DNA of 64,000 bases from Streptomyces olindensis (GTDB lineage: Bacteria > Actinomycetota > Actinomycetes > Streptomycetales > Streptomycetaceae): NCBI GenBank assembly GCA_000696115.1, contig JJOH01000019.1:579882-643881 (forward strand), written 5' to 3'. The notes below the pieces were generated by a model. That model did no database searches and was not told the origin of the DNA. It saw nothing but the letters and a program-made list of their open reading frames with translations. Shown one piece after another: positions 3,324 through 22,909 of this stretch. Each line of letters begins with the position of its first letter. Positions within the stretch are counted from its first letter, which is position 1. The position numbers were made by a program, and so were the translations under genes.

Positions 3324-4190
3324 TCACACGGCCTCGCCTCCGGGGTTGGCGACGCCGACCGTGTTCTCGACCGAGAGCAGGGAGTCCTGTCGTCCGGAGC
3401 CGAGCCAGCGCACCAGGGCCACCAGGCCGAGGGCGAGGATGGCGAAGGCGGTGAGGAGCGCGCTGACGGCGGTGACGCTGGGGTCGATCTCGAAGGTCAG
3501 CGAGTTGTAGACCTGCACGGGCAGGGTGACGGTGTCGACCGAGGAGAGGAACTGGGAGATGTAGAACTCGTCGAAGCTGGTGATGAAGGAGAAGATCGCC
3601 GCCGCGATCATGCCGGGTGCGGCGAGGGGGAAGGTGATCTTCCGGGCGATCGTGAGGCGGCCGGCGCCCATGCTCGCGGCGGCGTCCTCGAGGCGTTCGT
3701 CGATCCCGCGCAGGGTCGCGATCAGGATCAGCACCGCGATCGGTGAGGCCAGCACGGTGTGTCCGAGGGCGATGGCGATGGGGCTGCCCAGCATCGCGGC
3801 GGGCTCGAACAGCAGGAACAGGCCGAGCGCGGTGACGATCTGCGGGATGACCAGAGGGCCGAGGACCAGGGCGAAGACCGCTGAGCGCAGCGGGAGTTCG
3901 CTGCGGACCAGAGCGGTTGCCGCGGTCACCCCGATGATCAGGGAGAACACGGTGCTCAGGGCGGCGATCAGGGCGCTCAGGGAGAGCGCGGCGGGCCATT
4001 TGCTGCCGTCGGCGAACAGGGCCTTGTACCAGTTCAGCGTCCACGCCTCGGGCGGGAAGGAGGCGAAGGCGTTGTTGCTGAAGGAGGTGACGAGGATGAC
4101 GACGATCGGCAGCGCCAGGAACAGCAGGATCACAGTGGCGACCGCGGTCAGGGCGATGCGTCCGGTGAGGGACTTGCGCAGTTCCATCAT
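3324..4190 (-). CDS. ABC transporter permease, PotC-like (spermidine/putrescine type)
   Basis: 288 residues with about six hydrophobic segments and the binding-protein-dependent permease EAA loop (DAAASMGAGRLTIARKITFP), which contacts the ATPase. Family members import spermidine, putrescine or related amines. Two adjacent ATGs open the frame behind GAGGAG, and the first overlaps the stop of the upstream permease (ATGA), which implies translational coupling. The C-terminal tail after the last membrane segment is hydrophilic. Substrate specificity cannot be read from the permease. Confidence 0.92.
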   Translation of the reverse strand: MMELRKSLTGRIALTAVATVILLFLALPIVVILVTSFSNNAFASFPPEAWTLNWYKALFADGSKWPAALSLSALIAALSTVFSLIIGVTAATALVRSELPLRSAVFALVLGPLVIPQIVTALGLFLLFEPAAMLGSPIAIALGHTVLASPIAVLILIATLRGIDERLEDAAASMGAGRLTIARKITFPLAAPGMIAAAIFSFITSFDEFYISQFLSSVDTVTLPVQVYNSLTFEIDPSVTAVSALLTAFAILALGLVALVRWLGSGRQDSLLSVENTVGVANPGGEAV

Positions 4191-5083
4191 GACGCACTCC
4201 TCTTCTTACGGCTGGCGCCCAGTGAGGTCACGGCCTTGACCAGGAGGAGTCCGGCCAGGGTGAGGACCAGCAGGATGACGCCTTGCGCGGCGGCGCCGTT
4301 CCACTGGTTCTCCTTGGTGACCTGCTGGTTGATGAGGGTGGCGATCATCGTCTGGTCGGGTCCGCCCATCAGGGCCGGGGTGATGTAGTAGCCCAGCGAG
4401 AGGATGAAGCTGAGCAGCCCGGCACTGGCCAAGCCGGGGGCGACCAGGGGCAGGTAGACCCTGCGGAAGATGGTCACCCGTCCGGCGCCCATGCTGGCCG
4501 CGGCCGCGAGCAGGCGGCGGTCCACGCCGCGCATCACGCCGTACAGCAGCAGCACCGTGTACGGCAGCATCATCGAGGTGGTGCCGATGACGACGCCGAG
4601 TTCGTTGTAGAGCAGCTGGAACGGCGCTCCGGGGACCGACATGGCGGCCAGCGTCTCGTTCACCAGGCCCTTGTCACCCAGCATGATGATCCAGCCGTAG
4701 GTGCGTACCAGGGCGGACACGAAGTGCGGGACGACCACGATCAGCATGGCCAGGCCCGCCAGGATGGGCTTGAGCCGCGTGATCGCCTGGGCCAGGACGA
4801 ACCCGAACACCAGGCTCAACACGGCCGTCTCGGCGGAGATCCGCAGCGTGGTGATCAGGACGGACAGGTTCACGCCGGTCAGGGCGTCGGCGTACCAGTG
4901 CAGGGTGAACGATCCGTCGGCGTCCTTCAGGCTGAGCAGCAGCGTGCTGAAGATCGGGTAGACGAACAGCACCAGCAGATACACGACGACCGGCAGCGCG
5001 TAGAGGATCCCGACGCGTGTCCTGCGCGAAGCCAGGAGTTTGCGCGGGCGGGCGGGGGCCCCCGCGGTGAGGGTGGCTGCCAT
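4187..5083 (-). CDS. ABC transporter permease, PotB-like
   Basis: 298 residues. A basic N-terminus (ARPRKLLASRRTRVG) precedes the first membrane segment, and about six membrane spans follow. The EAA loop reads AAAASMGAGRVTIFRRVYLP. It pairs with the overlapping downstream permease to form the membrane channel. The start lies 3 bases after the ATPase stop with an AGGGTGAG-type site upstream. Together with the neighbouring genes it forms a complete Pot-type importer. Confidence 0.92.
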   Translation of the reverse strand: MAATLTAGAPARPRKLLASRRTRVGILYALPVVVYLLVLFVYPIFSTLLLSLKDADGSFTLHWYADALTGVNLSVLITTLRISAETAVLSLVFGFVLAQAITRLKPILAGLAMLIVVVPHFVSALVRTYGWIIMLGDKGLVNETLAAMSVPGAPFQLLYNELGVVIGTTSMMLPYTVLLLYGVMRGVDRRLLAAAASMGAGRVTIFRRVYLPLVAPGLASAGLLSFILSLGYYITPALMGGPDQTMIATLINQQVTKENQWNGAAAQGVILLVLTLAGLLLVKAVTSLGASRKKRSAS

Positions 5084-5086
5084 GGC

Positions 5087-6226
5087 TCACCCTGCCTGTT
5101 CGTCTGCGAAGAGGTTGACGTCCTCGGGGTCGGCGGTGATCCCGATCCGCTCGCCCGCGACCGGGCCCCGGCCCGCCGGGACCTCCAGACGCAGCAGCGG
5201 TGCCTGACCGCCGTCGATGCGCACGCCGGCGCGGACCAGGGTGCCGACGTAGGTGGCGGTCTCGACCGCGCCGGTACAGAAGCCGTCGTCGGGGGCGCAG
5301 GCCCGCAGCCGGCCCGGCTGCACAGCCACCTTGACCGGGGTGTTGGCGGCCAGCTGGTGGCGGCGCGCCTTGATCAGGCCACCGGAGTTGTCGAGGCGGA
5401 CCAGGGTGTGCTGGCCGTCGTGCTGCTCGACGCGGCCGGGCAGGAAGTTGGCCGCGCCGAGGAAGTCCGCCACGAACGGCGTCTTCGGCCGCTCGAACAG
5501 CTCCCTGGGGGTGTCGAACTGCTCGATCAGGCCGTTGCGCATCACCGCGATACGGTCGGACATGACCAGCGCCTCTTCCTGATCGTGCGTCACATAGATG
5601 ACGGTCAGGCCGAGTTCCTGCTGGATGGTCTTGATCTCGACCTGGAGCTGGTCACGCAGCTTCTTGTCCAGCGCGCCGAGCGGTTCGTCCATGAGGATGA
5701 CCGGCGGGCGGTAGACCAGCGCCCGGCACAGGGCGACCCGCTGCTGCTGGCCACCGGACAGCTCACGCGGCTTACGCCCGCCGAACCCGGACAGGCCCGC
5801 GATCTCCAGCGTCTCCCCCACCCGGCGGCGGATCTCGTCCTTCGCCACTCCGCGCAGGGTGAGCGGGAAGGCGACGTTCTCGGCGACCGTCATGTGCGGG
5901 AAGAGCAGGTACTGCTGGAAGACGAAGCCCAGGCCACGTTTCTGCGGCGCGAGCCGGGTGACATCCCGGTCCCCGACGGTGATGGTGCCGGAGTCGGGTT
6001 CGCAGAACCCGGCGATCATCATCAGCGTCGTGGTCTTGCCCGACCCCGAGGAGCCGAGGAAGGTGACGAACTCCCCGGCGGCGATCTCCATGGACGCCTC
6101 GTCGACGGCGACCACGTCGCCGTAGGTCTTGCGCAGGGCCACCACCGACAGCGATTTGCCGGTCGCGGTGGCCGGCTTGCCGCCGGCCACCTTGACGGAC
6201 GGTGTGGCAACACCGAATTCAGCCAC
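5087..6226 (-). CDS. ABC transporter ATP-binding protein, PotA-like
   Basis: 379 residues. The ABC ATPase domain shows Walker A (GSSGSGKTT, about residue 57), Q-loop FQQYLLFPHMTV, signature LSGGQQQR, Walker B ILMDEPLGALD and the H-loop THDQEEA. A C-terminal TOBE-type regulatory domain follows (about residues 240-379), as in PotA/MalK proteins. The start overlaps the binding-protein stop by 8 bases. It powers the importer made of the adjacent permeases and lipoprotein. Confidence 0.94.
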   Translation of the reverse strand: MAEFGVATPSVKVAGGKPATATGKSLSVVALRKTYGDVVAVDEASMEIAAGEFVTFLGSSGSGKTTTLMMIAGFCEPDSGTITVGDRDVTRLAPQKRGLGFVFQQYLLFPHMTVAENVAFPLTLRGVAKDEIRRRVGETLEIAGLSGFGGRKPRELSGGQQQRVALCRALVYRPPVILMDEPLGALDKKLRDQLQVEIKTIQQELGLTVIYVTHDQEEALVMSDRIAVMRNGLIEQFDTPRELFERPKTPFVADFLGAANFLPGRVEQHDGQHTLVRLDNSGGLIKARRHQLAANTPVKVAVQPGRLRACAPDDGFCTGAVETATYVGTLVRAGVRIDGGQAPLLRLEVPAGRGPVAGERIGITADPEDVNLFADEQAG

Positions 6227-7319
6227 GAGCCCACTCCAACCAGCGCTTGGTGACGGCCGATTCGTTCTTCAGCCACCAGTCGACATCCGCGTCGAAACCC
6301 TTGTCGTAGTACTGCGGCGCGCCGGCGGAAGCGTTGCGCTGGTCCTCGGTGAGCTTTTCGTAGGCCACCGGAGAGGACGGGTTCGACGGAAAGAACTTGA
6401 CCAGGTTGGCCTGGCTCTCGGCACGCAGCGAGAAGTCCATGAGCTTGTAGGCGTTGTCCATGTTGGCCGCGCCCTTGGCGATGGCGTAGCCGGAGAACTG
6501 GCGGCGCGTGCCGTTGAGCTGCCGCTCGACCGGGACGCCCTGCTTCTGCAGGTCGGCGAGCCGGCCGTCCCAGACGGTGGACATCGTCACTTCCTGGCGG
6601 CTGAGCAGCACGCCCGGGAGCGGGCCGCTGTCCCAGAACTTCTTGATGTCGGGCCGCAGCTCGGTCAGCACCTTGAAGGCGCGGTCCACATCCAGCGGAT
6701 ACAGCTTGTCCATCGGGACGCCGTCGGCCAGCAGCGCGAACTCCAGCTCCGGCAGGTCACCGTCCGGGTGGACCATCGCACGGGAGCCCTGGAACGCCTT
6801 GGTGTCCCAGAAGTCCGCCCACGACTCGGGCTTCCGGCCCCCGAAGGCGTCGGTGCGGTAGCCGATGCACTGACCGTAGAAACTGTGTCCGATGGCATGG
6901 TCGGTGATCTGGGCCTTGGGGATCTTCGCGCTCCTCAGGCTCTTGACCCGGTCGAGGTCCAGCGCCTCCAGCGCGTCCTGCTTGACGTACTTGTAGTGAG
7001 ACATCATCGAGTTGTTGATGAGGTCGCACTGCGGGCGGCCCTGCTTGATCTGCGCCAGCAGCGGGGCGTCGTCCAGGTTGAGCACCTTGACCTGGATGCC
7101 GGTCTCCTGGGTGAACGGCGTGTAGATCGCCTTCTGCAGGGCCGCCCCGTAGGAACCGCCGCTGTCACGGACGACCACCGTCTTACCGCCACCCTTGCCT
7201 CCGGCCGCGGCGCGGCTGGTGCCGGTGCCGCAGGCGGCCAGGGAGGGAAGAGCGGCGAGGGCGGCGAGGCCGCCTGCTCCGCGCAGGAGCGCTCTACGAC
7301 CGATCTGGGCATCACTCAT
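6219..7319 (-). CDS. Extracellular substrate-binding lipoprotein, PotD-like
   Basis: About 366 residues. The N-terminus has a twin-arginine motif (GRRALLRGAGG), a hydrophobic stretch and a lipobox (SLAAC), so it is probably exported by Tat and lipid-anchored. The fold signature matches periplasmic spermidine/putrescine-binding proteins (family 1/PotD). I chose the ATG at 7319 (MSDAQIGRR) because GGAG lies 7 bases upstream; the ATG at 7334 overlaps that site. It is first in the operon that continues through the ATPase, two permeases and the aldehyde dehydrogenase. Confidence 0.9.
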   Translation of the reverse strand: MSDAQIGRRALLRGAGGLAALAALPSLAACGTGTSRAAAGGKGGGKTVVVRDSGGSYGAALQKAIYTPFTQETGIQVKVLNLDDAPLLAQIKQGRPQCDLINNSMMSHYKYVKQDALEALDLDRVKSLRSAKIPKAQITDHAIGHSFYGQCIGYRTDAFGGRKPESWADFWDTKAFQGSRAMVHPDGDLPELEFALLADGVPMDKLYPLDVDRAFKVLTELRPDIKKFWDSGPLPGVLLSRQEVTMSTVWDGRLADLQKQGVPVERQLNGTRRQFSGYAIAKGAANMDNAYKLMDFSLRAESQANLVKFFPSNPSSPVAYEKLTEDQRNASAGAPQYYDKGFDADVDWWLKNESAVTKRWLEWARG

Positions 7320-7913
7320 GGCAGTACTCCTCATATAGGGACGCGTGGGACCAGCTGTGCGGGGGCTTTACCTCGCAGGTGGGGGGTGGGATGTGCAGGG
7401 CGGCGAACGCGGACGGAAGAATTGCCCGCTTGCGTTGTCGGTCGCCTCTTTGGGCGCGTGTTCGCCGTGGATCGGGTCCCCGACGACCGTGTTGTCGGGG
7501 CGACTCCGGCTGGAAGACCGGATGAGTGGCGGCGGCGTCGGTCTTCGACGTTGCTCAGCAGGCAGCTTCGCGAGAGGTCTCGAAGACGATCGGGTCGCGC
7601 GGTACCGGCGTCACATCACGGTCACGTAGATCTTGCGGACGGTTTCGATGGCGGCACGTACGCGCGGGCGTGGCCCGTTCGCGAGGTGCGGAGGCCGGCG
7701 ACGCCTCGCGGCCGGCGTCGGGGTGGCCAGGGTTGCGCGGATGTGCTCTTCGGCACGGGCGCAGCGGGTAGCGCAGTCCGAGTGCGGCGATCGGGGCATG
7801 CGCTCGACTCGTGGTCGATCAGGCATGCCGCAAGCGGCGGTTGCCGAAGGCAGAAGACGAGACGGAGAACAGGTCGTTCAGCCGATGCTGGTGGTGATGC
7901 CCAGCAGGGATGC
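7320..7913. other. Intergenic region, no supported gene
   Basis: Nearly 600 bases between the transporter operon and the SDR gene. A 7-bp inverted repeat (CCCCGAC/GTCGGGG, 7478-7500, 9-base loop) could be a weak terminator. Short frames on both strands resemble nothing I recognise, and composition is less regular than in the coding neighbours, so decayed coding DNA is possible. The promoter of the transporter operon should lie in the first 150 bases but no clear -35/-10 pair stands out. Confidence 0.5.
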
Positions 7914-8648
7914 TCAGAAAGCGGTGTAGCCGCCGTCGACGGTCAGGACAGATCCGGTCACGTACGACGACTCCGAGGACGCGAAGAAGAGCACCGCGTC
8001 GGCGACCTCTTCAGGGGTGGCGAGGCGCTGGAGCGGGATCGTGCTCTCGCGCTCGCGGCGGTAGCCCTCGGGGTCGGGCCTGCGTTGGAACGCCGCTTCG
8101 ATGATCGGGGTGGCGGTCAGACCCGGAGCGACGACGTTGACACGGATGTTGCGCGGGGCCCATTCGATCGCGGCGCCCTTGGCGAGCATGATGAGGCCAC
8201 CCTTGGCGGCGGAGTACAGGACCTGCCCGGCCATGCCGACCATGCCCAGCCGTGAACTGACGCAGACGAACGAGCCGCCGGTCTCAGGCATCAGCGGCGC
8301 GAAGTGCTTCATCACCAGGAACGCGCTGAGCAGGTTGCTCTCGAGCACGTTCTTCGCGTCGTCGTAGGCCATCTCGGTGAGCGGACTGGCAGCCTGCAGG
8401 CCGTGGTTGAGGACGACGACGTCGACGGTGCCGAAGGACTCGGCGGCCTGCTTGGCCAGGTGCTCGACGAACGCCTCGTCGTTGAGGTCTCCGGGAACGT
8501 ACAGGTCGTCGGGCTCAGCACTGTCGAGCCGCTCCCTGCGTCCGGTCAGCAGCAGCCGCGCGCCCTCGCGGCGGAAGTGGGAACTCACGGCCTGCCCGAT
8601 GCCACTGCTGGCGCCGGTCACCAGGGCCGTGACGTTGTTGAGTCTCAT
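7914..8648 (-). CDS. Short-chain dehydrogenase/reductase (SDR), classical type
   Basis: 244 residues, standard SDR length. NAD(P)-binding TGASSGIG is near residue 13; LNHG, the catalytic serine in VSSRLGMVG and the YSAAK tyrosine/lysine pair are all present, ending with VTGSVLTVDGGYTAF. It is the third gene of a RidA - PLP enzyme - SDR cassette. The ATG at 8648 has AGGA 9 bases upstream; an ATG at 8657 would add three residues. A C-terminal fragment of a close paralogue sits at 14263-14385. It probably oxidises or reduces a hydroxy/keto intermediate; the substrate is unknown. Confidence 0.9.
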   Translation of the reverse strand: MRLNNVTALVTGASSGIGQAVSSHFRREGARLLLTGRRERLDSAEPDDLYVPGDLNDEAFVEHLAKQAAESFGTVDVVVLNHGLQAASPLTEMAYDDAKNVLESNLLSAFLVMKHFAPLMPETGGSFVCVSSRLGMVGMAGQVLYSAAKGGLIMLAKGAAIEWAPRNIRVNVVAPGLTATPIIEAAFQRRPDPEGYRRERESTIPLQRLATPEEVADAVLFFASSESSYVTGSVLTVDGGYTAF

Positions 8649-8719
8649 GTGGGGCATTCCTTTGCGGTGGAGGTAGGTCGGATTGCGGGCTCGGCCACGA
8701 ACATCTCGTCCCGTGCCGG

Positions 8720-9826
8720 TCAGTTGAGGAATCCGCGGGCGTCGACCGGCCACCGCTCCAGCGACGTGCCCGTGCTGTCGGTGACGATCAGTTCCTCGAA
8801 ACCGAGGACGACCGGGCACACGTGGTTCGGCACCACCGGTACGACGGTGCCGACGCTGGGGCGGAACTCGCCGTCTGGCAGCGGGAGGAATCCGTGGTAC
8901 TCGTTGACCTTGGACAGGACCGCCTTCGTGCCGGCGATGCCGCCGTAGCCGATCTCGGGGCTGCCTTCTTTGCTGAGGGCCTTGTTGCCCACATCGACGA
9001 TGACCTGGCCGGGGACCCAATCGCTGACCACGGTGCCGGCGACGAACAGCGCGATCTGGTCCTCCGTGCAGGAGCCCAACCGGGCGTTGTTCAGATCGCC
9101 GAAGACATACTCGCCGGGACGGATCTCGGTGATCACGCCGCTGGTGGAGAACTCGAGGGTGGGAGTGGACCCGGCGCTGACCACCTCAGCGGTGACCCCG
9201 ACGTCGGCGAGGCTGCGTACCGCGGTGATGAGCGCGGCCTCCTGGTCCTGCGCAGCGCGCCCGCGAGCGTCCCGACCGGCACCACCGTGACCCGGATAGG
9301 TGAAGACACCCACTGGTACCAGACCGCGCTTGCGGGCGGCGAGCGCGAGGTCGCCCGCAGCCTCGGGCGGCGCCCCGGAACGACGGGCGCCGCAGTCGAC
9401 CTCGACCACGACCTGCAGCCGGTCCGGTTCGTCCCCCATCGCGTCGGCGAGGGCCTCGATCGCCAGCACGTTGTCGACACCGACCCGCAGTCGGGCGGAC
9501 TCGGCAAGCCGGCGGATCCGGGGACCCTTCGTTCCCGCCGGCCAGACCGGGTAGGCGAGGAAGATGTCGTCGAATCCGGCCGCGGCAAAGACCTCGGCCT
9601 CACCGACGTTTCCCGCGGTGATCCCGACCGCGCCGGCCTCGATCTGGCGTCGCCCGATCTCCACGCACTTGTGCGTCTTGATGTGCGGCCTGACCTTGAG
9701 GTTGTGCTGGTCGGCGAAGCTCTGGATGCGGTCGATGTTGCCTTGCATGACGTCGACCAGCACGATCGGGGCGGGGGTGTCGATCCGCTCGACCACAGCG
9801 TCGAGTGCTCGTTGCAGCCGGTTCAC
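8720..9826 (-). CDS. PLP-dependent D-threonine aldolase/D-serine dehydratase-like enzyme (fold type III)
   Basis: 368 residues with an N-terminal alanine-racemase-like barrel and a C-terminal beta domain of the D-serine dehydratase-like type. The PLP lysine is in RPHIKTHKC (about residue 50). NHVCPV near residue 330 carries the His/Cys pair that binds metal in this family. Family members cleave or dehydrate D-beta-hydroxy amino acids. The GTG start at 9826 follows AAGGAGG by 6 bases. Placed between RidA and an SDR, it may produce enamines or ketones that those proteins process. The N-terminus of a second, destroyed copy lies at 14163-14260. Confidence 0.88.
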   Translation of the reverse strand: MNRLQRALDAVVERIDTPAPIVLVDVMQGNIDRIQSFADQHNLKVRPHIKTHKCVEIGRRQIEAGAVGITAGNVGEAEVFAAAGFDDIFLAYPVWPAGTKGPRIRRLAESARLRVGVDNVLAIEALADAMGDEPDRLQVVVEVDCGARRSGAPPEAAGDLALAARKRGLVPVGVFTYPGHGGAGRDARGRAAQDQEAALITAVRSLADVGVTAEVVSAGSTPTLEFSTSGVITEIRPGEYVFGDLNNARLGSCTEDQIALFVAGTVVSDWVPGQVIVDVGNKALSKEGSPEIGYGGIAGTKAVLSKVNEYHGFLPLPDGEFRPSVGTVVPVVPNHVCPVVLGFEELIVTDSTGTSLERWPVDARGFLN

Positions 9827-9949
9827 GCTGCCCTCCTTGTGATTCTGCCTGGAATGATCGAGGGGCGCGAGTGCTGACTCCCCTTGGATGCCGACGGCGC
9901 GCGGCCCGCGATATCGCGCGTCCTTGCGTACACCGCCGTCGAGACCGCC

Positions 9950-10435
9950 CTATACGGCGGTGCAGACCATCTGGATCTCGACCGGACTGTTGAGCGGCAG
10001 CCCGGCGACACCGATCGCGGTGCGGGCGTGCCGTCCCTTCTCCCCCAGCACCTCTATGAGCAGTTCACTGGCCGCGTTGGCGACCTTCGACTGCTCACCG
10101 AAGTCCGGCGTACTGGCCACGAAGACCAGCATCTGCACGATCCGGACCCGGTCCAGGTCGCCCACCGCCTGCACAGCAGCGGCGAGGCAGTTGAGCACGG
10201 CATGGCGCGCGAGTGACCGCGCCGTCTCCAGCTCGACGTCCCGGCCGACCGTGCCCTGACCCTGCAGCCAACCGTCCTGGTAGGGCAGCTGGCCCGAAAT
10301 GTAGATGCTGGAGCCCACGGTCCGGTGGTGGACGTAGTACGGGTTGTCACCGAGCTCGGGAAGGGCCAGACCCAGGGCCTGGAGCCGGTCGGAAGCCGAG
10401 CCGGTGTTCGCTGCCGAAGTCATGGACTGGCTCAT
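9950..10435 (-). CDS. RidA-family (YjgF/YER057c/UK114) enamine/imine deaminase-like protein, copy 1
   Basis: 161 residues, somewhat longer than canonical RidA (about 130), as in the group with an LGLxLPE N-terminal extension. RidA proteins hydrolyse reactive enamine/imine intermediates formed by PLP enzymes and amine oxidases. The start at 10435 is chosen for GGAGG 7 bases upstream; the open frame extends further only by chance. Its last 100 residues are almost identical in protein and DNA to the RidA at 13663-14148 on the other strand, while the first 60 differ clearly. It is first in the RidA-PLP-SDR cassette. Confidence 0.9.
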   Translation of the reverse strand: MSQSMTSAANTGSASDRLQALGLALPELGDNPYYVHHRTVGSSIYISGQLPYQDGWLQGQGTVGRDVELETARSLARHAVLNCLAAAVQAVGDLDRVRIVQMLVFVASTPDFGEQSKVANAASELLIEVLGEKGRHARTAIGVAGLPLNSPVEIQMVCTAV

Positions 10436-10541
10436 CGAGCCACCTCCCGCTTCGCATGAATCTTGATCATCTGCACTCGGTTCTCCTCTCGAGTAACAGC
10501 GGCGACATATCGCCGTATGGTGGCTTAAAACTGCCACCACA

Positions 10542-10584
10542 TTGTCGTTTGTCGACCATATGGCTGCCTGTCGAGCAGTGTCAA
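10542..10584 (-). promoter_or_regulatory. Promoter and GntR-type operator of RidA copy 1
   Basis: On the minus strand a perfect TTGACA (10584-10579) is followed after 18 bases by TATGGT (10560-10555). The sequence ATGGTCGACAAACGACAA (10559-10542) covers the -10 box and matches the operators beside the FadR-like gene. Just beyond lies TGGTGGC-N8-GCCACCA (10518-10539), a second inverted repeat of unknown use. Repression by the GntR protein at 12010-12675 is inferred. Confidence 0.7.
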
Positions 10585-11096
10585 TACGAACTTCAACCTG
10601 GCTCGCCGGTCTCATCCAGGTTCGACATGGACGAGCATGCGCAGGACACCCGTCCGCGACGATCCAGCAGCAAGAAGGCCGTGACGGAGCAACTCACCGA
10701 CACGGAGAGTAAGTTGACTGCACTGTCCTGGTCGGCTCTTTGGGTCTTGAGGCCGATCACGACAGCACGTGCGCCTTGCGGGCGCAGGCACCACCGGGTG
10801 CTCGCGACCTCCTCGATCACGCAGCCCCGGGGCCCCGGGTTCAGGCGGCGCGCCCCGCCCAAGCATCAGCCGACGCCCTGGACACGCGGCAACCGATCCG
10901 CCCTCGTTCTGCTCCTACGGCAACTCCCCGTCCGCGGTTGCGCCTCCGTCATGGCGCACCAGCCGTGGCCACGACTGAGGCCCGGACGCCGCACCAGTGA
11001 TCCGGGGCGGCGTCCGGGCAGGCCGAGAAGGGTTGCTCGGACGGGCGGCGCTCGATCGGCGACCGATGATGCGATGCGACAAGCGCACCATCCGGG
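10585..11096. other. Intergenic region, no supported gene
   Basis: About 510 bases upstream of RidA copy 1 and downstream of the DUF2180 gene. Frames on either strand have no recognisable family features. I see no strong terminator or RNA structure. Confidence 0.5.
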
Positions 11097-11306
11097 TCAG
11101 TGCGCCGTCTCGGCCATGTCGCAGGTGTGGCATACCACCCTGCGGGCCGGGATCCGGCCGTACGCAGCGCCCATGCCGAGCTGGCGGGTGACCTGTACCT
11201 GACGTACGCGGGCATGGTTCTCGCAGGTGGCCAAGCCGCAGCGCGAGCACACACCGATGCCGGTGGTGTCGCTGCGCGCCTCCTGAAGGCAGTCGTAGCA
11301 CCTCAT
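11097..11306 (-). CDS. DUF2180-like small zinc-ribbon protein
   Basis: 69 residues. Three cysteine pairs plus C-x3-H (MRCYDCLQ, CSRCGLATCENH, VCHTCDMAE) give the spacing of a double zinc-ribbon/B-box-like fold and match the small actinobacterial DUF2180 proteins. The ATG at 11306 follows GGAG by 6 bases. A sigma-70-like promoter lies about 95 bases upstream. It stands alone, so context gives no function; protein or nucleic-acid binding is only a guess from the fold. Confidence 0.8.
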   Translation of the reverse strand: MRCYDCLQEARSDTTGIGVCSRCGLATCENHARVRQVQVTRQLGMGAAYGRIPARRVVCHTCDMAETAH

Positions 11307-11398
11307 GTTCAACTCCGATTTCAGCGGGGGCCAGGTGCGGCGGCCGACCAACATGAACAAACCCACCTAGGCCACGCACACCTACTCAAGGAGCTTGA

Positions 11399-11427
11399 AA
11401 AGTATGCGCCAGTTTAGACTTTGTCAA
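11399..11427 (-). promoter_or_regulatory. Probable promoter of the DUF2180 gene
   Basis: The minus strand has TTGACA (11427-11422), a 17-base spacer and TACTTT (11404-11399). Transcription would start near 11392, giving a leader of about 85 bases before the ATG at 11306. Confidence 0.55.
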
Positions 11428-12009
11428 GACTGAGACTCGATCGCGCTCGTCCGGCCAGGGTCCTCGTCCGGCCAGGGCGCGATGCGGTGCGGGTGGTGGA
11501 CGGCGGCGGGCCGGTGACCGCGACACTCCGCGAGCGGGCACCTCCGTGGCCTCGCCCGGCTGCTGACTGCGGGCAGTTGCCTCCACATTCGGGCCGGCCA
11601 TGCGCCAGCTCGTGGGCGGCTGCCACCACCGCGCACCGGCCGTTGGGTGCGGTTCGTCAGCGAGCAGATCCGCCGGCCGCCCGCTGGGGCCCCTGCCGGC
11701 GGGCACGCCGTTGCCGGCGGACCGAAGGGCTTCTCCGGATCTCCACCGTGCCCCGCAGCCACAGCGAAACGGGCATCGACCGGCTGTGGCAGGGCAAGAA
11801 TGCCGTGGTGCCACTGGTGCGCCAGGCCTTCCAGCTGCCGCGAGTTCTCCAGGAGAAGGCCACGGCCGAGCGCGACGTCGATCCCCGGCGTGCCCCTGGC
11901 CGAGGTCCTGCCCCTGGTCGCCACCGCGCCCCGCCGTCCGGTGAAGGAACGGCCCCGCCCGCGCGACTGCCCGCCCGGCGGCACGGCCTCACACTTGCCC
12001 TGGCAGGCG
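11428..12009. other. Intergenic region, no supported gene
   Basis: About 580 bases between the DUF2180 promoter and the end of the GntR gene. Minus-strand frames are open but proline/arginine-rich in the way expected of chance frames in GC-rich DNA. Some stretches vaguely recall decayed coding sequence, but nothing could be assigned. Confidence 0.5.
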
Positions 12010-12675
12010 TTACCCCGAGTCCCCCGTTCGGCCTCCCAGTCCCACGGGGAAGTGGGCAGCCAGTTCCTGGCGGAACGCGTCGGTGTCGCCTTCCAGGGCA
12101 ACCGCGGCCAACCGCTCGTGCTCGACGACCAATTGCTGCGGGTCGTCGCTGTAAGTGCGGTGATCGACGCTGAGGTGAAGGCGCAGCTTGGTCTCCCAGC
12201 CGTTCCAGAGACTCTGCAGGACGCCATGACCGGAGAGATCGTAGAAGAGCCTGTGGAAGCGAAGATGCGCGTCGATGCTGGCCGGGATGTCGCCCTTCTC
12301 CATCGCCCGGCGGAGGTCCTCGACGGTTTGCAGCAACTGAGGCCGCTCGGAACCACGCAGCTTTTCGGCCGAGAGCTCGGCGGCGTACGGCTCGACCCGC
12401 AGCCGGACCGAGTCGATCTCGGCGACCTCACGAGCGCTCACCTCTACGACGAACGCCCCGCGGTAGGGGATCTTGACGACGAGCCCTTCCTCCTCCAGCT
12501 TGGTCAGCGCTTCCCGCAGCGGGGACCGGCTGATGCCGAGATCCGCGGCGATGTGCGCCTCACGCAGCTGGCCACCAGGAGGCACGGTGCCGTCGAGGAT
12601 GGCGGCACGCAGTGTGCGGTAGACGCCGTCCGGCGTCGTCATCCGCTGCTCCTGCCACTCGAACTTGTGGTCCAC
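12010..12675 (-). CDS. GntR family transcriptional regulator, FadR/FCD subfamily
   Basis: About 221 residues. The N-terminal winged HTH contains GGQLREAHIAADLGISRSPL (GntR signature LREAL.KLEEEGLV follows), and the all-helical FCD domain occupies the rest with histidines in HLRFHRLFYD and VEHERLAAVA suitable for metal or ligand binding. GTG at 12675 has GGAGG 8 bases upstream; an ATG at 12642 with GGAG is an alternative start. It is divergent from the HAD-RidA operon. Inverted repeats TGGTCGA-N3-TCGACCA flank it and recur before RidA copy 1, so it probably represses both cassettes and itself. Confidence 0.9.
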   Translation of the reverse strand: MDHKFEWQEQRMTTPDGVYRTLRAAILDGTVPPGGQLREAHIAADLGISRSPLREALTKLEEEGLVVKIPYRGAFVVEVSAREVAEIDSVRLRVEPYAAELSAEKLRGSERPQLLQTVEDLRRAMEKGDIPASIDAHLRFHRLFYDLSGHGVLQSLWNGWETKLRLHLSVDHRTYSDDPQQLVVEHERLAAVALEGDTDAFRQELAAHFPVGLGGRTGDSG

Positions 12676-12708
12676 CCCGTCGTCCTCCCTCAGTGCCCTG
12701 CCGACCAC

Positions 12709-12728
12709 TTGGTCGTTTGTCGACTATA
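12709..12728 (-). promoter_or_regulatory. Operator over the GntR gene's own -10 box
   Basis: Minus-strand TATAGT (12728-12723) is overlapped by ATAGTCGACAAACGACCAA (12727-12709), an imperfect copy of the operator found twice at 12843-12888. This supports negative autoregulation. Confidence 0.6.
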
Positions 12729-12825
12729 GCGCCCGCCCTGCACGGAACTCCCTGGATTCAGGGGCCCGCACCCCGTCCGGCTCGCCGGTCGCGACGCCAG
12801 GTCCGGGCCCGCTTCTCCGACTCTA

Positions 12826-12888
12826 TTGACAGCCGGGATTCACTTGGTCGACAATCGACCAAGAGGCGGGATGGTCGACAATCGACCA
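12826..12888 (+). promoter_or_regulatory. Promoter with tandem operators for the HAD-RidA-oxidase operon
   Basis: TTGACA (12826-12831), 18 bases, then GACAAT (12850-12855). The -10 lies inside CTTGGTCGA-CAA-TCGACCAAG (12843-12863), a 9-bp-arm inverted repeat. A second copy, TGGTCGA-CAA-TCGACCA (12872-12888), is centred 27 bases further. Two sites about 2.5 helical turns apart suit dimeric GntR repressor binding. Confidence 0.75.
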
Positions 12889-12926
12889 AACGCAAGACTG
12901 TTCCACTGACACACCAGGAGGACCCA

Positions 12927-13607
12927 GTGGGATTCGACGTCAAGCCCAAGTTCGTGACGTTCGACATGAACGGAACGCTGATCAACTTCCGCATCAACGA
13001 CACGATGCGTGAGGTCCTGGGTGACCGGCTGCCGGCCGAGGTCGCCGATGAGTTCCTGCGGATCTGCAAGGCGTACCGGATCGACGAGTGCACGGGCGCG
13101 TACCAGCCCTTCCACCAGGTCGTCGCGCGCTCGATGGAGCGCGCCCTGCACAAGGTCGGTCTCGAGTACCGCGAGGACGAGGCGCGGGCGGTGTACGAGC
13201 GCATCCCCACCTGGGGCCCGCACCCCGGTGTCACCGAGGCGCTGAACCGCCTGGCCGAGGAGGTCCCGCTGGTCATCATCACCAACAGCGACACCGCGCA
13301 CGCCGTGCGCCTCGCGGAGAACCTCAAGGCCCCGTTCGAGGTCGTCATCAGCGCCGAGGAGATGGGCGTCTACAAGCCGCGACTCCGCGCCTTCGAGTAC
13401 ATGTTTGACAAGCTCGGCGTGACACCCGACGAGCTCGTGCACGTCTCCGCGAGCCCGATGTACGACCTGCGCTCCGCGGCCATCATGGGCATCGAGAACA
13501 AGGTGTACGTCGACCGCGGCTGGGAGCACGACGAGCACTGGCTCGGCTACGAGCGGATCACCGACATCGCCGACCTCCCCGTCCTCTTCGGCCTGCCGCG
13601 CCCCTGA
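12927..13607 (+). CDS. HAD-superfamily hydrolase, 2-haloacid dehalogenase-like
   Basis: 226 residues. The four HAD motifs are visible: nucleophilic aspartate in FVTFDMNGTL (about residue 13), motif II IITNSD, the motif III lysine in GVYKPRLRAFEY, and a motif IV region HVSASPMYDLRSA. The cap follows motif I as in L-2-haloacid dehalogenase-like proteins. GTG at 12927 follows GGAGGACCCA. It is the first gene after the tandem GntR operators and precedes RidA. Whether it removes a halide or a phosphate is not clear; the operon suggests a small amine-pathway metabolite. Confidence 0.85.
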   Translation: MGFDVKPKFVTFDMNGTLINFRINDTMREVLGDRLPAEVADEFLRICKAYRIDECTGAYQPFHQVVARSMERALHKVGLEYREDEARAVYERIPTWGPHPGVTEALNRLAEEVPLVIITNSDTAHAVRLAENLKAPFEVVISAEEMGVYKPRLRAFEYMFDKLGVTPDELVHVSASPMYDLRSAAIMGIENKVYVDRGWEHDEHWLGYERITDIADLPVLFGLPRP

Positions 13608-13636
13608 CGCCTGAGCCTGAGCGGAGAACCGAGGAA

Positions 13637-13666
13637 ATGATCCACAGCAAGACGGTGGCGGAATGA
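13637..13666 (+). other. Nine-codon leader ORF coupled to RidA copy 2
   Basis: An ATG behind GAGGAA encodes MIHSKTVAE and its TGA overlaps the RidA ATG (ATGA). RidA copy 2 has no good ribosome-binding site of its own, so this short frame may hand ribosomes to it. It may also be what remains of a deleted gene. Confidence 0.35.
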
Positions 13667-14148
13667 GTCAGCCCCTGCCTCAAACCGTCAAGGGTGACTC
13701 GGCTTCAGAAAGGCTCCGGGCCCTGGGACTGGAGCTACCCGTCCTCGCCGGCACCACGTACCTCGTGCCCCACCGGACGGTGGGCTCCACCATCCACCTC
13801 TCCGGCCAACTCCCCTTCAAGGACGGCGAGCTGCTGGGGCAGGGCGTTGTCGGCCGGGACGTGGAGCTGGAGACCGCGCAGGAGCTCGCACGCCATGCCG
13901 TGCTCAACTGCCTCGCCGCTGCTGTGCAGGCGGTGGGCGATCTGGACCGGGTCCGGATCGTGCAGATGCTGGTCTTCGTGGCCAGTACGCCGGACTTCGG
14001 TGAGCAGTCGAAGGTCGCCAACGCGGCCAGTGAACTGCTCATCGAGGTACTGGGTGAGAACGGACGGCACGCCCGCACCGCGATCGGTGTCGCCGGGCTG
14101 CCGCTCAACAAGCCTGTCGAGATCCAGGTCGTCTGCACCGCCGTATAG
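13663..14148 (+). CDS. RidA-family enamine/imine deaminase-like protein, copy 2
   Basis: 161 residues, paralogue of 9950-10435. The C-terminal 100 residues (from GRDVELETA onward) differ at only a few positions; DNA identity there is also very high, whereas the N-terminal 60 residues diverge. This mosaic suggests recent gene conversion or unequal selection. It follows the HAD gene in the GntR-controlled operon and precedes two FAD amine oxidases whose imine products RidA proteins can hydrolyse. The start overlaps a tiny upstream frame. Confidence 0.9.
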   Translation: MSQPLPQTVKGDSASERLRALGLELPVLAGTTYLVPHRTVGSTIHLSGQLPFKDGELLGQGVVGRDVELETAQELARHAVLNCLAAAVQAVGDLDRVRIVQMLVFVASTPDFGEQSKVANAASELLIEVLGENGRHARTAIGVAGLPLNKPVEIQVVCTAV

Positions 14149-14162
14149 CGGCGAGCCACTCA

Positions 14163-14260
14163 TGAGCAGCGCGGCGGTGGCCCGGCATCGACAGGCACTC
14201 GACGCCCTCGGCCAGCACGATCGACACCCCGGTGCGGATCCTGCTGGCCGACGGGAGGGG
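14163..14260 (+). pseudogene. 5' remnant of a second D-threonine aldolase-like gene
   Basis: After the ATG at 14163, RQALDALGQH and then, one frame over, IDTPVRILLADG match RALDAVVERIDTPAPIVLVD at the N-terminus of the intact enzyme at 8720-9826. A frameshift lies near 14220, and the gene is cut at about 14260 where SDR sequence begins. Over 1 kb of the gene is missing. Confidence 0.75.
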
Positions 14261-14262
14261 CG

Positions 14263-14385
14263 ATTTCACTCAGGCACCTCGCCGCTCCCGAGGAGATCGC
14301 CGACGCCGTTCTGTTCCTCGCGTCGTCGGAGTCCTCGTACATCACCGGGGCAACCCACCCCGTCGACGGCGGCCACACCGCCTTC
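14263..14385 (+). pseudogene. 3' remnant of a second SDR gene
   Basis: Reads HLAAPEEIADAVLFLASS and YITGATHPVDGGHTAF, closely matching the last 40 residues of the SDR at 7914-8648. The N-terminal 200 residues are absent. The usual stop has been lost and the frame runs on into the downstream oxidase, in phase with its ATG at 14431. Confidence 0.8.
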
Positions 14386-14430
14386 CGGCAGTGGTCCACG
14401 CGGTTCCCAGAGACAGATGAAGGACACACC

Positions 14431-15834
14431 ATGAACGCCCCAGCGGCACCACCCCGCAACGGAGAGCTCGGCTTCTGGGTGGCCCAACTGGCCGACAGGA
14501 AGCCCTCGTTCCCCCGCTTCACCGGCCAGGACTCCGTCGACGTGGCCATTGTGGGCGGCGGCTACACCGGCCTCTGGGCGGCGTACTTCGCCAAGAAGCT
14601 CGAACCCTCGCTCTCGGTCACCGTCTTCGAGGCCGAGCAGGTGGGCTACGGCGCGTCAGGGCGCAACGGTGGCTGGCTCTCGGCCATGCCGCCGGGAAAC
14701 CGTGCCACCTTCGCCCGCGCCGGGGGAGGGCTGGAGGCGAGCCGGGCGCTGCAGCAGGAGTTCGTCGCCGGCGTCGACGCTGTCCTGGACATCCTTGAGG
14801 CCGAGGGCATCGATGCCGATCAGCACAAGGGCGGCGCGCTCGTCGCCGCTCACACTCGGGCGGGGCTGGGCCGACTGGTCACCAGGCGTGACGCCGAACT
14901 GAAGTACGGGCTGACCGACGACGAAGTCCACCTGCTCGACCGGGACGAGTTCCAGTCCCGGATCAACATCTCCACCGTTCACGGCGGACTCTTCTACAAG
15001 CACTGCGCGCGGATCCACCCCGCGAAACTCGTCTACGGCCTCGCCGACACCCTGACCTCCATGGGGGTCAGGATCTACGAGAGCAGCCGCGTGGACCGTG
15101 TCGAGGGCAAGACCCTCACCCTGGCCGACGGGCGTGTCACCGCGGCGAAGACATTCATCTGCACCGAAGGCTATTCGGGACAGCTGCTGGGCCGCCGGAG
15201 CCTGATCCCGGTCAATTCCTCGATGATCGTGACCAAGCCCCTGCCGGAGGAGGCCTGGCAGCAGATCGGCTGGGACGGGCCCCAGTGCCTCAACGACTCC
15301 GCGCACACGTTCATCTACTCCCAGCGGACATCCGACGGCCGTATCGCCATGGGGGGCCGTGGCGTCCCCTACCGCTTCGGGTCCGGCACGGGGGGAGCCG
15401 GTGCGACTCCCCAGTCCACCATCGACCTGATCTCGCACAAGCTCAGTACCTTCTTCCCGGGCATCTCCTTCGAGGTGGATCACGCCTGGTCGGGAGTCCT
15501 GGGCGTCACGCGTGACTGGAACGGCGGTGTGCACTGGGACCCGGCATCCGGGATCGGGTCGTCCACCGGCTACGCGGGACACGGTGTCACGGCGGCCTAC
15601 GTCGGCGGCAGGACCCTCGTGGAGCTCGCCTTCGAGAAGGAAACCGAACGGACCACCCTTCCCTGGGTCGGCTACCGGGCACGGAAGTGGGAACCGGAAC
15701 CCATCCGCTGGCTGGGCGTTCACGCCATGTACCGGCTCTTCGGCATCGCCGACCAGTGGGAGGAGCGCAGGGGATCCACCGCCACCTCGCTCCTGGCCAG
15801 ATTCGGCAGCAGGCTCGCCGGACTTCACGAGTAG
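14431..15834 (+). CDS. FAD-dependent amine/amino-acid oxidoreductase (DAO family, PuuB-like)
   Basis: 467 residues. The dinucleotide-binding motif VAIVGGGYTGLWAAYFAKK lies near residue 37 and GASGRNGGW near residue 75; the C-terminal GYAGHGVTAAY motif closes the FAD site. The layout resembles gamma-glutamylputrescine oxidases and other DAO-family enzymes that oxidise a C-N bond to an imine. The ATG at 14431 has AAGGA upstream. It lies in the GntR-regulated operon between an SDR remnant and another FAD oxidase. The substrate is unknown. Confidence 0.87.
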   Translation: MNAPAAPPRNGELGFWVAQLADRKPSFPRFTGQDSVDVAIVGGGYTGLWAAYFAKKLEPSLSVTVFEAEQVGYGASGRNGGWLSAMPPGNRATFARAGGGLEASRALQQEFVAGVDAVLDILEAEGIDADQHKGGALVAAHTRAGLGRLVTRRDAELKYGLTDDEVHLLDRDEFQSRINISTVHGGLFYKHCARIHPAKLVYGLADTLTSMGVRIYESSRVDRVEGKTLTLADGRVTAAKTFICTEGYSGQLLGRRSLIPVNSSMIVTKPLPEEAWQQIGWDGPQCLNDSAHTFIYSQRTSDGRIAMGGRGVPYRFGSGTGGAGATPQSTIDLISHKLSTFFPGISFEVDHAWSGVLGVTRDWNGGVHWDPASGIGSSTGYAGHGVTAAYVGGRTLVELAFEKETERTTLPWVGYRARKWEPEPIRWLGVHAMYRLFGIADQWEERRGSTATSLLARFGSRLAGLHE

Positions 15835-15855: not shown

Positions 15856-17001
15856 ATGGACGCACAACTCGCCGTCATCGGCCTGGGCAGCATCGGAAGC
15901 ATGGCCCTATGGCAGGCCTCCCGGCTGGGCGGCTCGGTCGTGGGCTTCGAGGCCGCCACGCCGGCCCACGGCCGGAGTGCCGTGGGCGGGGACACCCGGC
16001 TGTTCCGCATGGTCTACCTCGGCAAGCCCGACTACTACCCCATCATCGAACGCTCCCGCAGCCTGTGGGCCGAACTCGAAGCGGAAACCGGGCAGGAAAT
16101 CCTCACCCCTACCGGGGGCCTGTCCATCGGGACGGTGAACGGCAGGTTCATCAACGGCCTCCTCGAGACAGCGCGCGCCAACGGAGCCGAGCACCGCGTC
16201 CTCAGCCGGGAGGAATTGGCGAAGCGCTACCCCCAGCACAACCTGCGCCCCGACGACTGTGCCCTCTATGACCCCCGCGCCGGCGTTCTGCGCACCGACC
16301 GCGCCGTCAGCGCTGCCGTCACGGCGGCCCAGGCCAACGGCGCCACAGTCCTCCAGAACACACCCGTGGACAGCATCACCGAAACCGACCACGGCGTGGT
16401 CGTCACTTCGGGCGACAGGAGCTGGACGTTCGAGAAGGTCATCGTCGCCTCGGGCGGCTGGTCCCGCAGGCTCATGCCCGACCACCTCAAGGCCGTCACG
16501 GAAACCCATCGGATCGTCCTGACCTGGTTCGTCGCCCAGGACGCCACACAGTTCTCGCCGGAGAACTTCCCCGTCTTCAGCCGGCTGTACGGCGATCGCT
16601 CCCTGTACGGCGCACCCGCCGTCGACGGCGTGACGGTCAAGGCATCGGTGGACGGACCGCTGGACGGACGCGGAAGGGAAACTCCCGACCCGGACTCCGT
16701 GCCCAGGGAACTCACCCGGCGCGAAATCGAGAAGGTCACCGAGATCGTCACCGACTTCTTTCCCGGCCTGATCCCCACCATCGTGCGCGCCGACGCCTTC
16801 CCCGACCTCTTCACCGAGGACAGGCACCCCCTCCTCGGCTGGCTGGACGAGAACAGCAGAGTCTACTGCGCCACCGGATTCTCCGGGAAGGGCTTCAAGA
16901 TGGCCACCGGCTACGGTCACATCGCCGCACACGAGGCGCTCGGCAAACAGACCATAGGGGGCCTGGATTTCGTGCGTCCGGACCGGTTCAAGATCAGGTA
17001 G
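15856..17001 (+). CDS. Sarcosine oxidase/N-methyltryptophan oxidase-like FAD enzyme (MSOX/SolA family)
   Basis: 381 residues, the normal monomeric sarcosine oxidase length. The N-terminus has [16 protein letters not shown], and [10 protein letters not shown] is the C-terminal FAD motif. Family members usually attach FAD to a cysteine in a CxYTxTPD segment around residue 310-320; the corresponding segment here ([18 protein letters not shown]) has no cysteine, so FAD is probably non-covalent. It lies 21 bases after the previous oxidase in the same operon. The substrate is probably a secondary amine, not necessarily sarcosine. Confidence 0.85.
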
Positions 17002-17475: not shown

Positions 17476-18858
17476 TCAGCACTCGATGACGTTGACGGCC
17501 AGGCCGCCGCGGGCGGTCTCCTTGTACTTGACCTTCATGTCGGCGCCGGTCTCCTTCATCGTCTTGATGACCTTGTCGAGGGAGACGTGGTGGCGGCCGT
17601 CGCCGCGCAGCGCCATCCGGGCGGCGGTGACGGCCTTGACCGCGGCCATGCCGTTGCGTTCGATGCAGGGGATCTGGACGAGGCCGCCGACCGGGTCGCA
17701 GGTCAGGCCGAGGTTGTGTTCCATGCCGATCTCCGCGGCGTTCTCCACCTGTTCGGGGCTGCCGCCGAGGACCTCGGCGAGACCGCCGGCGGCCATCGAG
17801 CAGGCGGAGCCGACCTCGCCCTGGCAGCCGACCTCGGCGCCGGAGATGGACGCGTTCTCCTTGAAGAGCATGCCGATGGCGCCGGCCGCGAGCAGGAAGC
17901 GGACGATGCCGTCCTCGTCGGCGCCGGGCACGAAGTCGAGGTAGTAGCGCAGCACGGCCGGGATGATGCCCGCCGCGCCGTTCGTCGGCGCGGTGACGAC
18001 CCGGCCGCCGGCGGCGTTCTCCTCGTTCACCGCCATCGCGTAGAGGGTCACCCACTCCAGCGCGCGGACCGCCGCGTTGCCCTCGCTGCGCAGTGCCCGG
18101 GCCGCCGCCGCGGCCCGCCGACGGACCTTCAGGCCGCCGGGGAGGATGCCCTCACGGCCCAGTCCGCGCGCGACACAGGCCTCCATGGCCCGCCAGATCT
18201 CCAGCAGGCCCGCGCGGATCTCGTCCTCGGTGCGCCAGGCCTTCTCGTTCTCCAGCATCAACGCGGAGATCGACAGACCGGTCTCCTTCGTCAGGCACAG
18301 GAGTTCGTCGCCGGTGCGGAATGCGTGGGGCAGCACCGTGGCGTCGGGGGTGACGCGGTCCGCGCCGACCGCGTCCTCGTCGACGACGAAGCCGCCCCCC
18401 ACCGAGTAGTACGTCTTCTCCAGCAGCGGCACCCCGTCGGCGTCGTACGCGAAAAGGATCATGCCGTTGGCGTGGTACGGCAGCGAGCGCCGACGGTGCA
18501 GGACCAGCTGGGTCGAGGCGTCGAAGCCGATCTCGTGGGCCGGGCCGATCTCGGCGCCGAGGAGCCGGATGCGTCCGGTGCCGCGGATCCGGTCGACGTC
18601 CAGGTCGGCCCGGGCGACGTCGACCGTGTGCGGTTCGTTGCCCTCCAGCCCGAGCAGCACCGCCTTCGGGGTGCCGTGACCGTGGCCGGTGGCACCGAGG
18701 GAGCCGAACAGCTCCGCCCGGACCGCGGCGGTCTGGGCAAGCAGCCCGTCCTGCTTCAGCCGGGCGACGAACATCCCGGCGGCCCGCATCGGGCCGACGG
18801 TGTGCGAACTGGACGGACCGATGCCTATGGAGAACAGGTCGAAGACGCTGATTGCCAC
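17476..18858 (-). CDS. sdaA: L-serine ammonia-lyase (L-serine dehydratase), iron-sulfur type
   Basis: 460 residues, the single-chain alpha-beta form. The N-terminal beta domain starts [20 protein letters not shown]; the alpha domain has [12 protein letters not shown] and the cluster cysteines in [13 protein letters not shown] and [14 protein letters not shown]. It converts L-serine to pyruvate and ammonia. GTG at 18858 has GGAG 6 bases upstream. It is third in the ferredoxin reductase - glyA - sdaA operon, so glycine from sarcosine would be turned into serine by GlyA and then to pyruvate here. Confidence 0.95.
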
Positions 18859-18926
18859 GCCACACTCCGTGGGATCGGCAGGGGCGTGACGCGCTGTCAC
18901 GGCACGCCCCTGCGGGAGGTTGTCGC

Positions 18927-20186: not shown

Positions 20187-20235
20187 CGGCGGTCTCCTTG
20201 CGTGTGGGCGCGGTGGGCGGCGCGGGCACCGGCGG

Positions 20236-22889: not shown

Positions 22890-22909
22890 CACCGACATCG
22901 GAGGAAGGC

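Follow-up and report, generated by a model that had tools for sequence, protein, structure and literature searches.

Operons can become mosaic when genes are displaced in situ, which leaves operon genes of mixed ancestry, and interlocus gene conversion between duplicates leaves a homogenised stretch beside a diverged one. In the bacterial gibberellin operon, ggps is inactive and ggps2 has been recruited (PMC7273348), and plasmid pJP4 carries the clusters tfdI and tfdII (PMC10531765). Here we analyzed a stretch of 64,000 nucleotides (nt) from Streptomyces olindensis (contig JJOH01000019.1, positions 579,882 to 643,881; hereafter the window), in which homologous RidA genes, together with intact or broken genes for a pyridoxal phosphate (PLP) enzyme and an SDR oxidoreductase, lie on opposite strands to either side of a GntR regulator gene. 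We think it probable (roughly 0.83) that this locus arose when two xenologous versions of a single catabolic operon were joined head to head, with reciprocal decay. Each arm has lost different genes, and together the two arms make one set. Literature searches on the gene set and on operon merging, judged by titles and abstract openings, found no paper on this locus.

In situ displacement swaps genes within one operon, whereas here both operons would persist as arms, with the displaced genes visible as remnants; and unlike interlocus conversion between fresh duplicates, the conversion seen here appears to join inverted copies that belong to different groups of the RidA 5' tree. The gibberellin operon resembles our reading of this locus in having moved horizontally, in having a broken gene covered by a separately acquired homologue and in lesions that differ among strains; one gene was replaced there (PMC7273348), whereas here two whole operon versions would be joined head to head, each arm with losses of its own and the remaining duplicate subject to conversion. 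The two tfd clusters are likewise homologous, serve one catabolic pathway and share a replicon; one contains a truncated regulator gene, and the other is known in deletion variants (PMC10531765). In the text consulted both retain a core set of genes, whereas here the shared genes except RidA are down to one full copy, in many Streptomyces species.

We refer to GntR-RidA1-PLP-SDR-ABC as the minus arm and to HAD-RidA2-(PLP-SDR remnant)-DAO1-DAO2 as the plus arm; loci and genomes of the comparative set carry L and G labels. The genes and remnants of the two arms, with flavin adenine dinucleotide abbreviated to FAD, are:

7914..8672, minus strand: SDR oxidoreductase, intact, minus arm (PF13561, E 1.4e-57)
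8720..9826, minus strand: PLP enzyme, D-threonine aldolase / D-3-hydroxyaspartate aldolase-like, intact, minus arm (PF01168 and PF14031 above cut-off)
9950..10435, minus strand: RidA1, minus arm (PF14588, E 1.3e-19)
12010..12708, minus strand: GntR/FCD regulator, minus-arm type (PF00392 and PF07729 above cut-off)
12927..13607, plus strand: HAD hydrolase, haloacid dehalogenase type II family, first plus-arm gene (TIGR01428, 144.8 bits, cut-off 125.4)
13663..14148, plus strand: RidA2, plus arm (PF14588, E 3.9e-20)
14177..14256, plus strand: remnant of the PLP gene, covering roughly its first 80 nt (blastn E 2e-7; alignments of relatives)
14256..14257, no strand assigned: nested second deletion of 79 bp (11-locus alignment, gap in 6)
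14257..14385, plus strand: remnant of the SDR gene, from its 3' end (blastn E 4e-22)
14431..15834, plus strand: DAO1, FAD-dependent oxidoreductase, plus arm (PF01266, E 3.8e-54)
15856..17001, plus strand: DAO2, FAD-dependent oxidase, plus arm (NF008425, N-methyl-L-tryptophan oxidase, 273 bits, cut-off 257)

A preliminary description of the window had read it as an inverted duplication of a RidA-PLP-SDR cassette around one GntR gene, with the second copy collapsed by one internal deletion of about 1.7 kb. When positions 7401-10900 were compared with 10901-15500 by blastn, RidA1 (minus) and RidA2 (plus) matched at 401 of 456 nt (88%, E 2e-165), positions 14261-14385 aligned with the intact SDR gene at its 3' end (96 of 125 nt, E 4e-22), and positions 14182-14253 aligned with the intact PLP gene at its 5' end (54 of 72 nt with one indel, E 2e-7), so both parts of the proposed fusion find significant similarity. 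The collapsed second PLP-SDR copy is therefore real, its order and orientation are those claimed, the GntR gene (12010-12708, minus) does sit between the copies, and the total loss does amount to about 1.7 kb. We refined the borders, placing the start of the PLP-derived part at 14177 and the PLP-SDR join at about 14256/14257, in the 282 bp that separate the RidA2 stop from the DAO1 start; longer forms of the same remnant are present in relatives. The interpretation is only partly supported. The locus is probably not a local inverted duplication: the arms fall in different tree groups, and both kinds of operon occur unmerged (in L114 and in Arthrobacter/Nocardia).

Relatives came from a scan with the HAD protein, of which the best 80 loci were kept. 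Among those of the Arthrobacter group and Nocardia, HAD-RidA-PLP-SDR-DAO1 occur in this order in 13 of 19 loci, mostly with DAO2 and GntR near, while five have HAD alone and one stops after RidA. The unmerged L114, from another Streptomyces, has ABC, SDR, PLP, RidA, GntR and HAD on one strand, with a HAD gene that adjoins GntR and is 76% identical to the window's HAD; its genome (G099) is not among the 19 genomes with DAO1. Window-like Streptomyces have the divergent locus, in which one side carries intact RidA-PLP-SDR and the opposite side HAD-RidA2-remnant-DAO1-DAO2. The layout HAD-GntR-RidA-PLP-SDR was found in Nocardioides, Promicromonospora, Isoptericola and Antribacter, and in Lentzea and some Amycolatopsis RidA-PLP-SDR lie at a greater distance from HAD, with GntR on the opposite strand. 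Distribution within the genus is patchy: of 392 genomes sampled, 21 contain HAD (E up to 1e-90) and 19 contain DAO1 (E up to 1e-180); a second genus draw from another centre gave apparently the same 392. We counted 46 Streptomyces plus-arm loci, defined by a DAO1 match of at least 80%, which are not 46 species because two loci come from some genomes. L080, below this DAO1 threshold and outside the 46, likewise holds PLP and SDR remnants only. Loci that were short or judged duplicates by contig position (L002, L084-L091, L094-L096, L098, L106-L111) were left out of the junction, spacer, site and plus-arm counts.

We propose that the minus arm came from a Streptomyces operon of the form HAD'-GntR-RidA-PLP-SDR-ABC, unmerged to this day in L114, and the plus arm from an Arthrobacter/Nocardia-type operon HAD-RidA-PLP-SDR-DAO1-DAO2, which in most cases has a GntR of its own. 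Once joined, the shared genes would have been redundant, and complementary losses may have followed: PLP and SDR from the plus arm, which also has no GntR beside DAO2, and HAD' from the minus arm, with a remnant kept in some species. This would have left one each of HAD, GntR, PLP and SDR, both oxidases, the transporter and one palindrome type before both arms. RidA alone still has a complete copy on each arm, which holds for about half of the loci, and conversion between its inverted copies would keep the 3' half alike. Both parents were found unmerged, and decayed genes turned up on either arm where the merger predicts them and on the predicted strand. The homologies, the conserved sites, the conversion signal and, within the limits given below, the tree placement are also seen directly, and that the losses came after redundancy is a step we infer. 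If this history holds, the locus offers a well-sampled record of side-by-side versions of one operon, with unmerged relatives of both parents and 46 decayed merged loci.

To the descent of the arms, RidA contributes most through its 5' half (codons 1-75 of the codon alignment on which the RidA trees were built). In this half, 34 minus-arm copies form one clade with that of the unmerged L103 (97/99), and 24 plus-arm copies form a 30-row clade with six rows from the Arthrobacter/Nocardia group (100/97). With the unmerged L114 and L115 added, one clade of merged-locus RidA copies was rejected by the approximately unbiased (AU) test for the 5' half (p-AU 0.0013). Cut copies or copies with odd starts (the L029 minus copy and both L030 copies) were left out of the half-gene RidA trees, the shuffles described below and the narrow AU tests. 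Identical rows (one of L072/L074, and the plus RidA of L038, which equals that of L105) were dropped before counting. In the PLP tree, six remnants form a clade (100/98) nested in the Arthrobacter/Nocardia clade (99/98), and placing the two longest (L007 and L099) in one clade with the merged-locus PLP genes was rejected (p-AU 0.008). The 18 SDR remnants form one clade (100/95) of uncertain placement, and a quick GntR tree sets Streptomyces GntR apart from the Arthrobacter type (92). Taken gene by gene, separate descent is favoured by the RidA 5' half and by PLP; SDR is too short and the HAD tree is mixed.

Had the plus arm been placed beside a HAD gene of the L114 type, a decayed HAD would be expected on the minus strand between GntR and the present HAD. 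Of 45 GntR-HAD spacers, nine contain such a minus-strand HAD remnant (E 5e-9 or better), and L015 gives one weaker case. Seven of the nine best match the HAD type of S. coeruleorubidus and S. swartbergensis, which is 88-90% identical to the HAD of L114.

Decay of the plus arm is general. A full PLP or SDR gene (at least 95% of its length in one piece, 60% identity) was found on 0 of the 46 Streptomyces plus arms; the preliminary description had pointed to related genomes as the place to look for an intact second copy or for a single one. RidA2 is full in 26 of these loci, partial in 13 and not found in 7, and outside the plus arm 33 of the 46 contain a full PLP gene and 5 a partial one. For the eight loci without PLP in reach, an intact copy lies elsewhere in seven genomes (L022 being assigned to genome G239 through its coordinates) and none in S. 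tuirus. The S. tuirus locus (L019) has no PLP match at E 1e-60 genome-wide and matches RidA2, DAO1 and DAO2 in pieces, which reflects either genuine decay or sequencing error.

The junctions left by these losses, surveyed in 40 stretches (nine more loci being without the DAO1 start), vary by species. One group passes from PLP nt 98 to SDR nt 555, a second from PLP about 160 to SDR 510-532, a third from 115 to 668 and L027 from 63 to 585; L007 and L099 retain PLP up to nt 451-472 with SDR not found, and six other stretches of the 40 have no PLP or SDR trace. When 11 loci of the 98-to-555 type were aligned, the window, L004, L005, L008, L011 and L022 were found to lack a further 79 bp that the other five retain. 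As this gap is nested in the older junction, the loss of about 1.7 kb needed at least two steps rather than the one internal deletion first supposed, the first of them removing about 1.6 kb as estimated from gene coordinates. The 98-to-555, 115-to-668 and 63-to-585 junctions could themselves be nested inside an older 160-to-510 deletion. However, the L007/L099 type neither derives from 160-to-510 nor gives rise to it, so at least two deletions are independent. In every merged locus surveyed PLP and SDR are lost from the same arm, through at least two deletions not derivable from each other, and a single early inactivation, before any deletion, could underlie all of them. The idea of several independent PLP-SDR losses is weakened, given that most junctions may nest in 160-to-510 and only the L007/L099 type stands separate.

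Similarity between the two RidA copies is uneven along the gene. Within 17 genomes (including L030, whose plus copy is cut), RidA1 and RidA2 of the same genome share a mean of 61% in the first 60 nt and 91-96% from nt 241; in the window, the successive 60-nt identities from 5' to 3' are 67, 73, 77, 83, 98, 100, 93 and 92%. Across 16 genomes, the mean identity of own pairs in the 3' half was reached by 0 of 20,000 shuffles, compared with 11,050 of 20,000 for the 5' half, and the own partner was best or tied in 6 of 16 genomes (3' half) and in 1 of 16 (5' half). The arms intermingle in the 3' half tree, with 10 and 11 label changes, and the window's RidA1 and RidA2 are mutual nearest relatives there. 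For this half, the minus-arm copies as one clade were rejected (p-AU 0.007), as was the plus arm with Arthrobacter/Nocardia (p-AU 0.0017), and a single clade of all Streptomyces copies was not rejected (p-AU 0.32). These patterns in the sequences indicate ectopic gene conversion between the inverted RidA copies, bounded to the 3' part, with the core of the tract in the window at:

10076..10195, minus strand: conversion tract core in RidA1 (98-100% identical to RidA2)
13903..14022, plus strand: conversion tract core in RidA2 (blastn, 60-nt identities, shuffles)

Whole-gene RidA identity was ruled out as a clock, the 5' and 3' halves giving different histories. More generally, a high-identity inverted repeat may represent copies of different descent homogenised by conversion rather than a recent duplication. 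In rough pairwise estimates (NG86, 60 pairs each), the ratio of nonsynonymous to synonymous substitution rates (dN/dS) is 0.33 (5') and 0.14 (3') for RidA1, and full-length RidA2 looks constrained because its ratios are 0.44 (5') and 0.19 (3').

HAD and DAO1 lie on the same strand in 45 of 46 loci and on opposite strands in L018 (S. afghaniensis), where, compared with L017, the RidA 3' ends and the downstream genes are exchanged. This order could be due either to a crossover at the RidA repeat or to misassembly of a draft scaffold over a repeat of at least 180 identical nt. We also considered, as an unlikely scenario, that repeated conversion keeps the RidA copies recombinable and that the GntR-HAD segment inverts, swapping the wiring of promoters and genes in a slow, recombinase-free switch; if this were true, L018 would be the flipped state of the inverting GntR-HAD segment.

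A number of results weigh against the merger. When the unmerged L103 is allowed in the clade of merged-locus copies, the rejection for RidA becomes marginal (p-AU 0.046) and there is none for PLP (p-AU 0.10) or SDR (p-AU 0.25). The best RidA tree does not unite the minus arm with unmerged copies (p-AU 0.25), or the plus arm with all Arthrobacter/Nocardia rows (p-AU 0.32), in one clade, though neither grouping is rejected, and in the tree of the narrow tests the minus-arm PLP genes do not form one clade. The narrow rejections may be partly inflated because unmerged copies nest among merged ones, and the p-values are optimistic because the groups were named only after a first quick RidA tree. 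The history of HAD is less clean, since a quick tree groups the window's HAD with that of L103 and two Nocardioides operons of HAD-GntR order (99), beside Arthrobacter (93). The HAD remnants of L082 and L093 best match the usual Streptomyces HAD, the window's own GntR-HAD spacer (218 bp) is without a HAD remnant, and the window's own PLP remnant is too short for tree placement.

Against this background, a history in which an ancestral Streptomyces duplicated RidA-PLP-SDR locally in inverted orientation and one copy then suffered a single internal deletion would account for the high RidA identity and the inverted symmetry, and the broad clade tests just given fail to reject it for PLP (0.10) and SDR (0.25). 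We regard it as very unlikely, given that the RidA copies share little identity at their 5' ends, high identity being confined to the converted 3' half, that the RidA 5' tree and the narrow AU tests oppose it, and that the HAD remnants are of another type and the deletions nested. An older duplication, which made the arms long before the present species and was followed by transfer of the plus arm from Streptomyces to Arthrobacter and Nocardia, would agree with the plus-arm RidA rows not being one clade apart from some Arthrobacter-group rows and with the same broad PLP test (p-AU 0.10). This too seems quite unlikely to us, because the plus arm has genes of its own in DAO1 and DAO2, the Arthrobacter-type GntR forms a separate group, and the six PLP remnants group as a single clade within Arthrobacter/Nocardia.

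It is hardly credible that the remnant (14177-14434) is retained as a short coding or coupling element whose frame ends at a TGA overlapping the DAO1 ATG. The frame does stop at the ATGA of DAO1 in 8 of 23 loci, and L005, L007, L011, L027 and L099 have no stop before or in the first 60 nt of DAO1; with no stop from the PLP start onward, the remnant could extend the DAO1 N-terminus in these five. However, the frames vary among species and junctions, 8 of 23 is about one third, and 7 of 46 loci have no RidA2, PLP or SDR trace at the thresholds used. Coupling of the remnant to DAO1 through ATGA was rejected, 8 of 23 being no excess over expectation.

Returning to the proposed merger, operator-like sites stand before genes of both arms:

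10544..10556, no strand assigned: palindromic operator-like site GTCGTTTGTCGAC, upstream of RidA1 (position, symmetry, conservation)
12712..12724, no strand assigned: operator-like site GTCGTTTGTCGAC, upstream of gntR
12847..12859, no strand assigned: operator-like site GTCGACAATCGAC, upstream of HAD, first of a pair
12874..12886, no strand assigned: operator-like site GTCGACAATCGAC, upstream of HAD, second of the pair

The GTCGTTTGTCGAC site precedes both RidA1 and gntR; this holds for the window, most merged loci and L114, where the 19-nt site contexts at RidA and gntR are identical to those of the window. The GTCGACAATCGAC site is paired before HAD in the window, most merged loci and most Arthrobacter/Nocardia loci, and single in the merged L007, L024, L032, L035 and L099 and in operons of the Nocardioides and Promicromonospora types. 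From their position and symmetry, these putative sites may be bound by GntR, and the site core common to both arms is suggestive of one regulated pathway.

Judged from the protein families, DAO1 and DAO2 may oxidise an imported amine or hydroxy-amino acid, with RidA hydrolysing the imines, while the PLP enzyme would cleave or dehydrate a D-beta-hydroxy amino acid and the SDR would act on the carbonyl product. The PLP enzyme has Ala_racemase_N and D-ser_dehydrat domains (Pfam), and its closest PDB chain is a D-threonine aldolase (4v15_A, E 1.8e-49). It is related to, but not an equivalog of, the BhcC 3-hydroxy-D-aspartate aldolase (NF045642, 147.7 bits against a cut-off of 690). The genome around the window (9.37 Mb) has one close PLP gene and three further matches of 31-35% identity, as well as three Rid matches to the RidA query, two of them within the window. 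RidA1 and RidA2 belong to the Rid family, PF14588 and PF01042 each exceeding the curated cut-off, while the NCBIfam model TIGR00004 stays under its own. By both of its Pfam domains GntR is an FCD (FadR-like) regulator, and neither it nor the PLP enzyme reaches an NCBIfam cut-off. For SDR, all 25 NCBIfam models among the matches listed score under their own cut-offs, as do those for DAO1, which has a single weak match in the PDB.

Further genes in and beside the locus are:

4187-6226: more ABC genes
6219..7334, minus strand: ABC substrate-binding protein, after the minus arm (PF13416)
11100-11306: gene for a small DUF2180 protein between gntR and RidA1 (Pfam)

The ABC substrate-binding protein is polyamine/aminoethylphosphonate-like, under the NCBIfam equivalog cut-offs. 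A DUF2180 gene lies at the same place in many relatives, and the same query had no match in L114. Window positions 17476-33379 carry genes that fit glycine betaine/sarcosine breakdown (eight proteins scanned, two without a match at 1e-20). L-serine ammonia-lyase, serine hydroxymethyltransferase, S-(hydroxymethyl)mycothiol dehydrogenase and the sarcosine oxidase beta family are above cut-off there, and a ferredoxin reductase-like and an FAD-GcvT-like protein are under it. The neighbouring serine dehydratase, serine hydroxymethyltransferase, S-(hydroxymethyl)mycothiol dehydrogenase and sarcosine oxidase-like genes would be compatible with a pathway that demethylates an N-methylated compound.

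Two of these loci occur together in some Streptomyces genomes (L033 with L037, L038 with L036, L092 with L105, and L004 with L007). RidA2 is full and DAO1 cut to about its last 59 codons in L033, L038 and L105, and in L036 and L037 DAO1 is full with RidA2 not found. In L093 (G104) an intact PLP gene lies about 69 kb away from the plus-arm HAD, so the arms may have parted again. Finally, a distant DAO oxidase (29-33%) occurs recurrently with a distant HAD (32-35%), or beside HAD itself, in L020, L028, L030, L040 and L103, which hints at a broader module of HAD plus oxidase.

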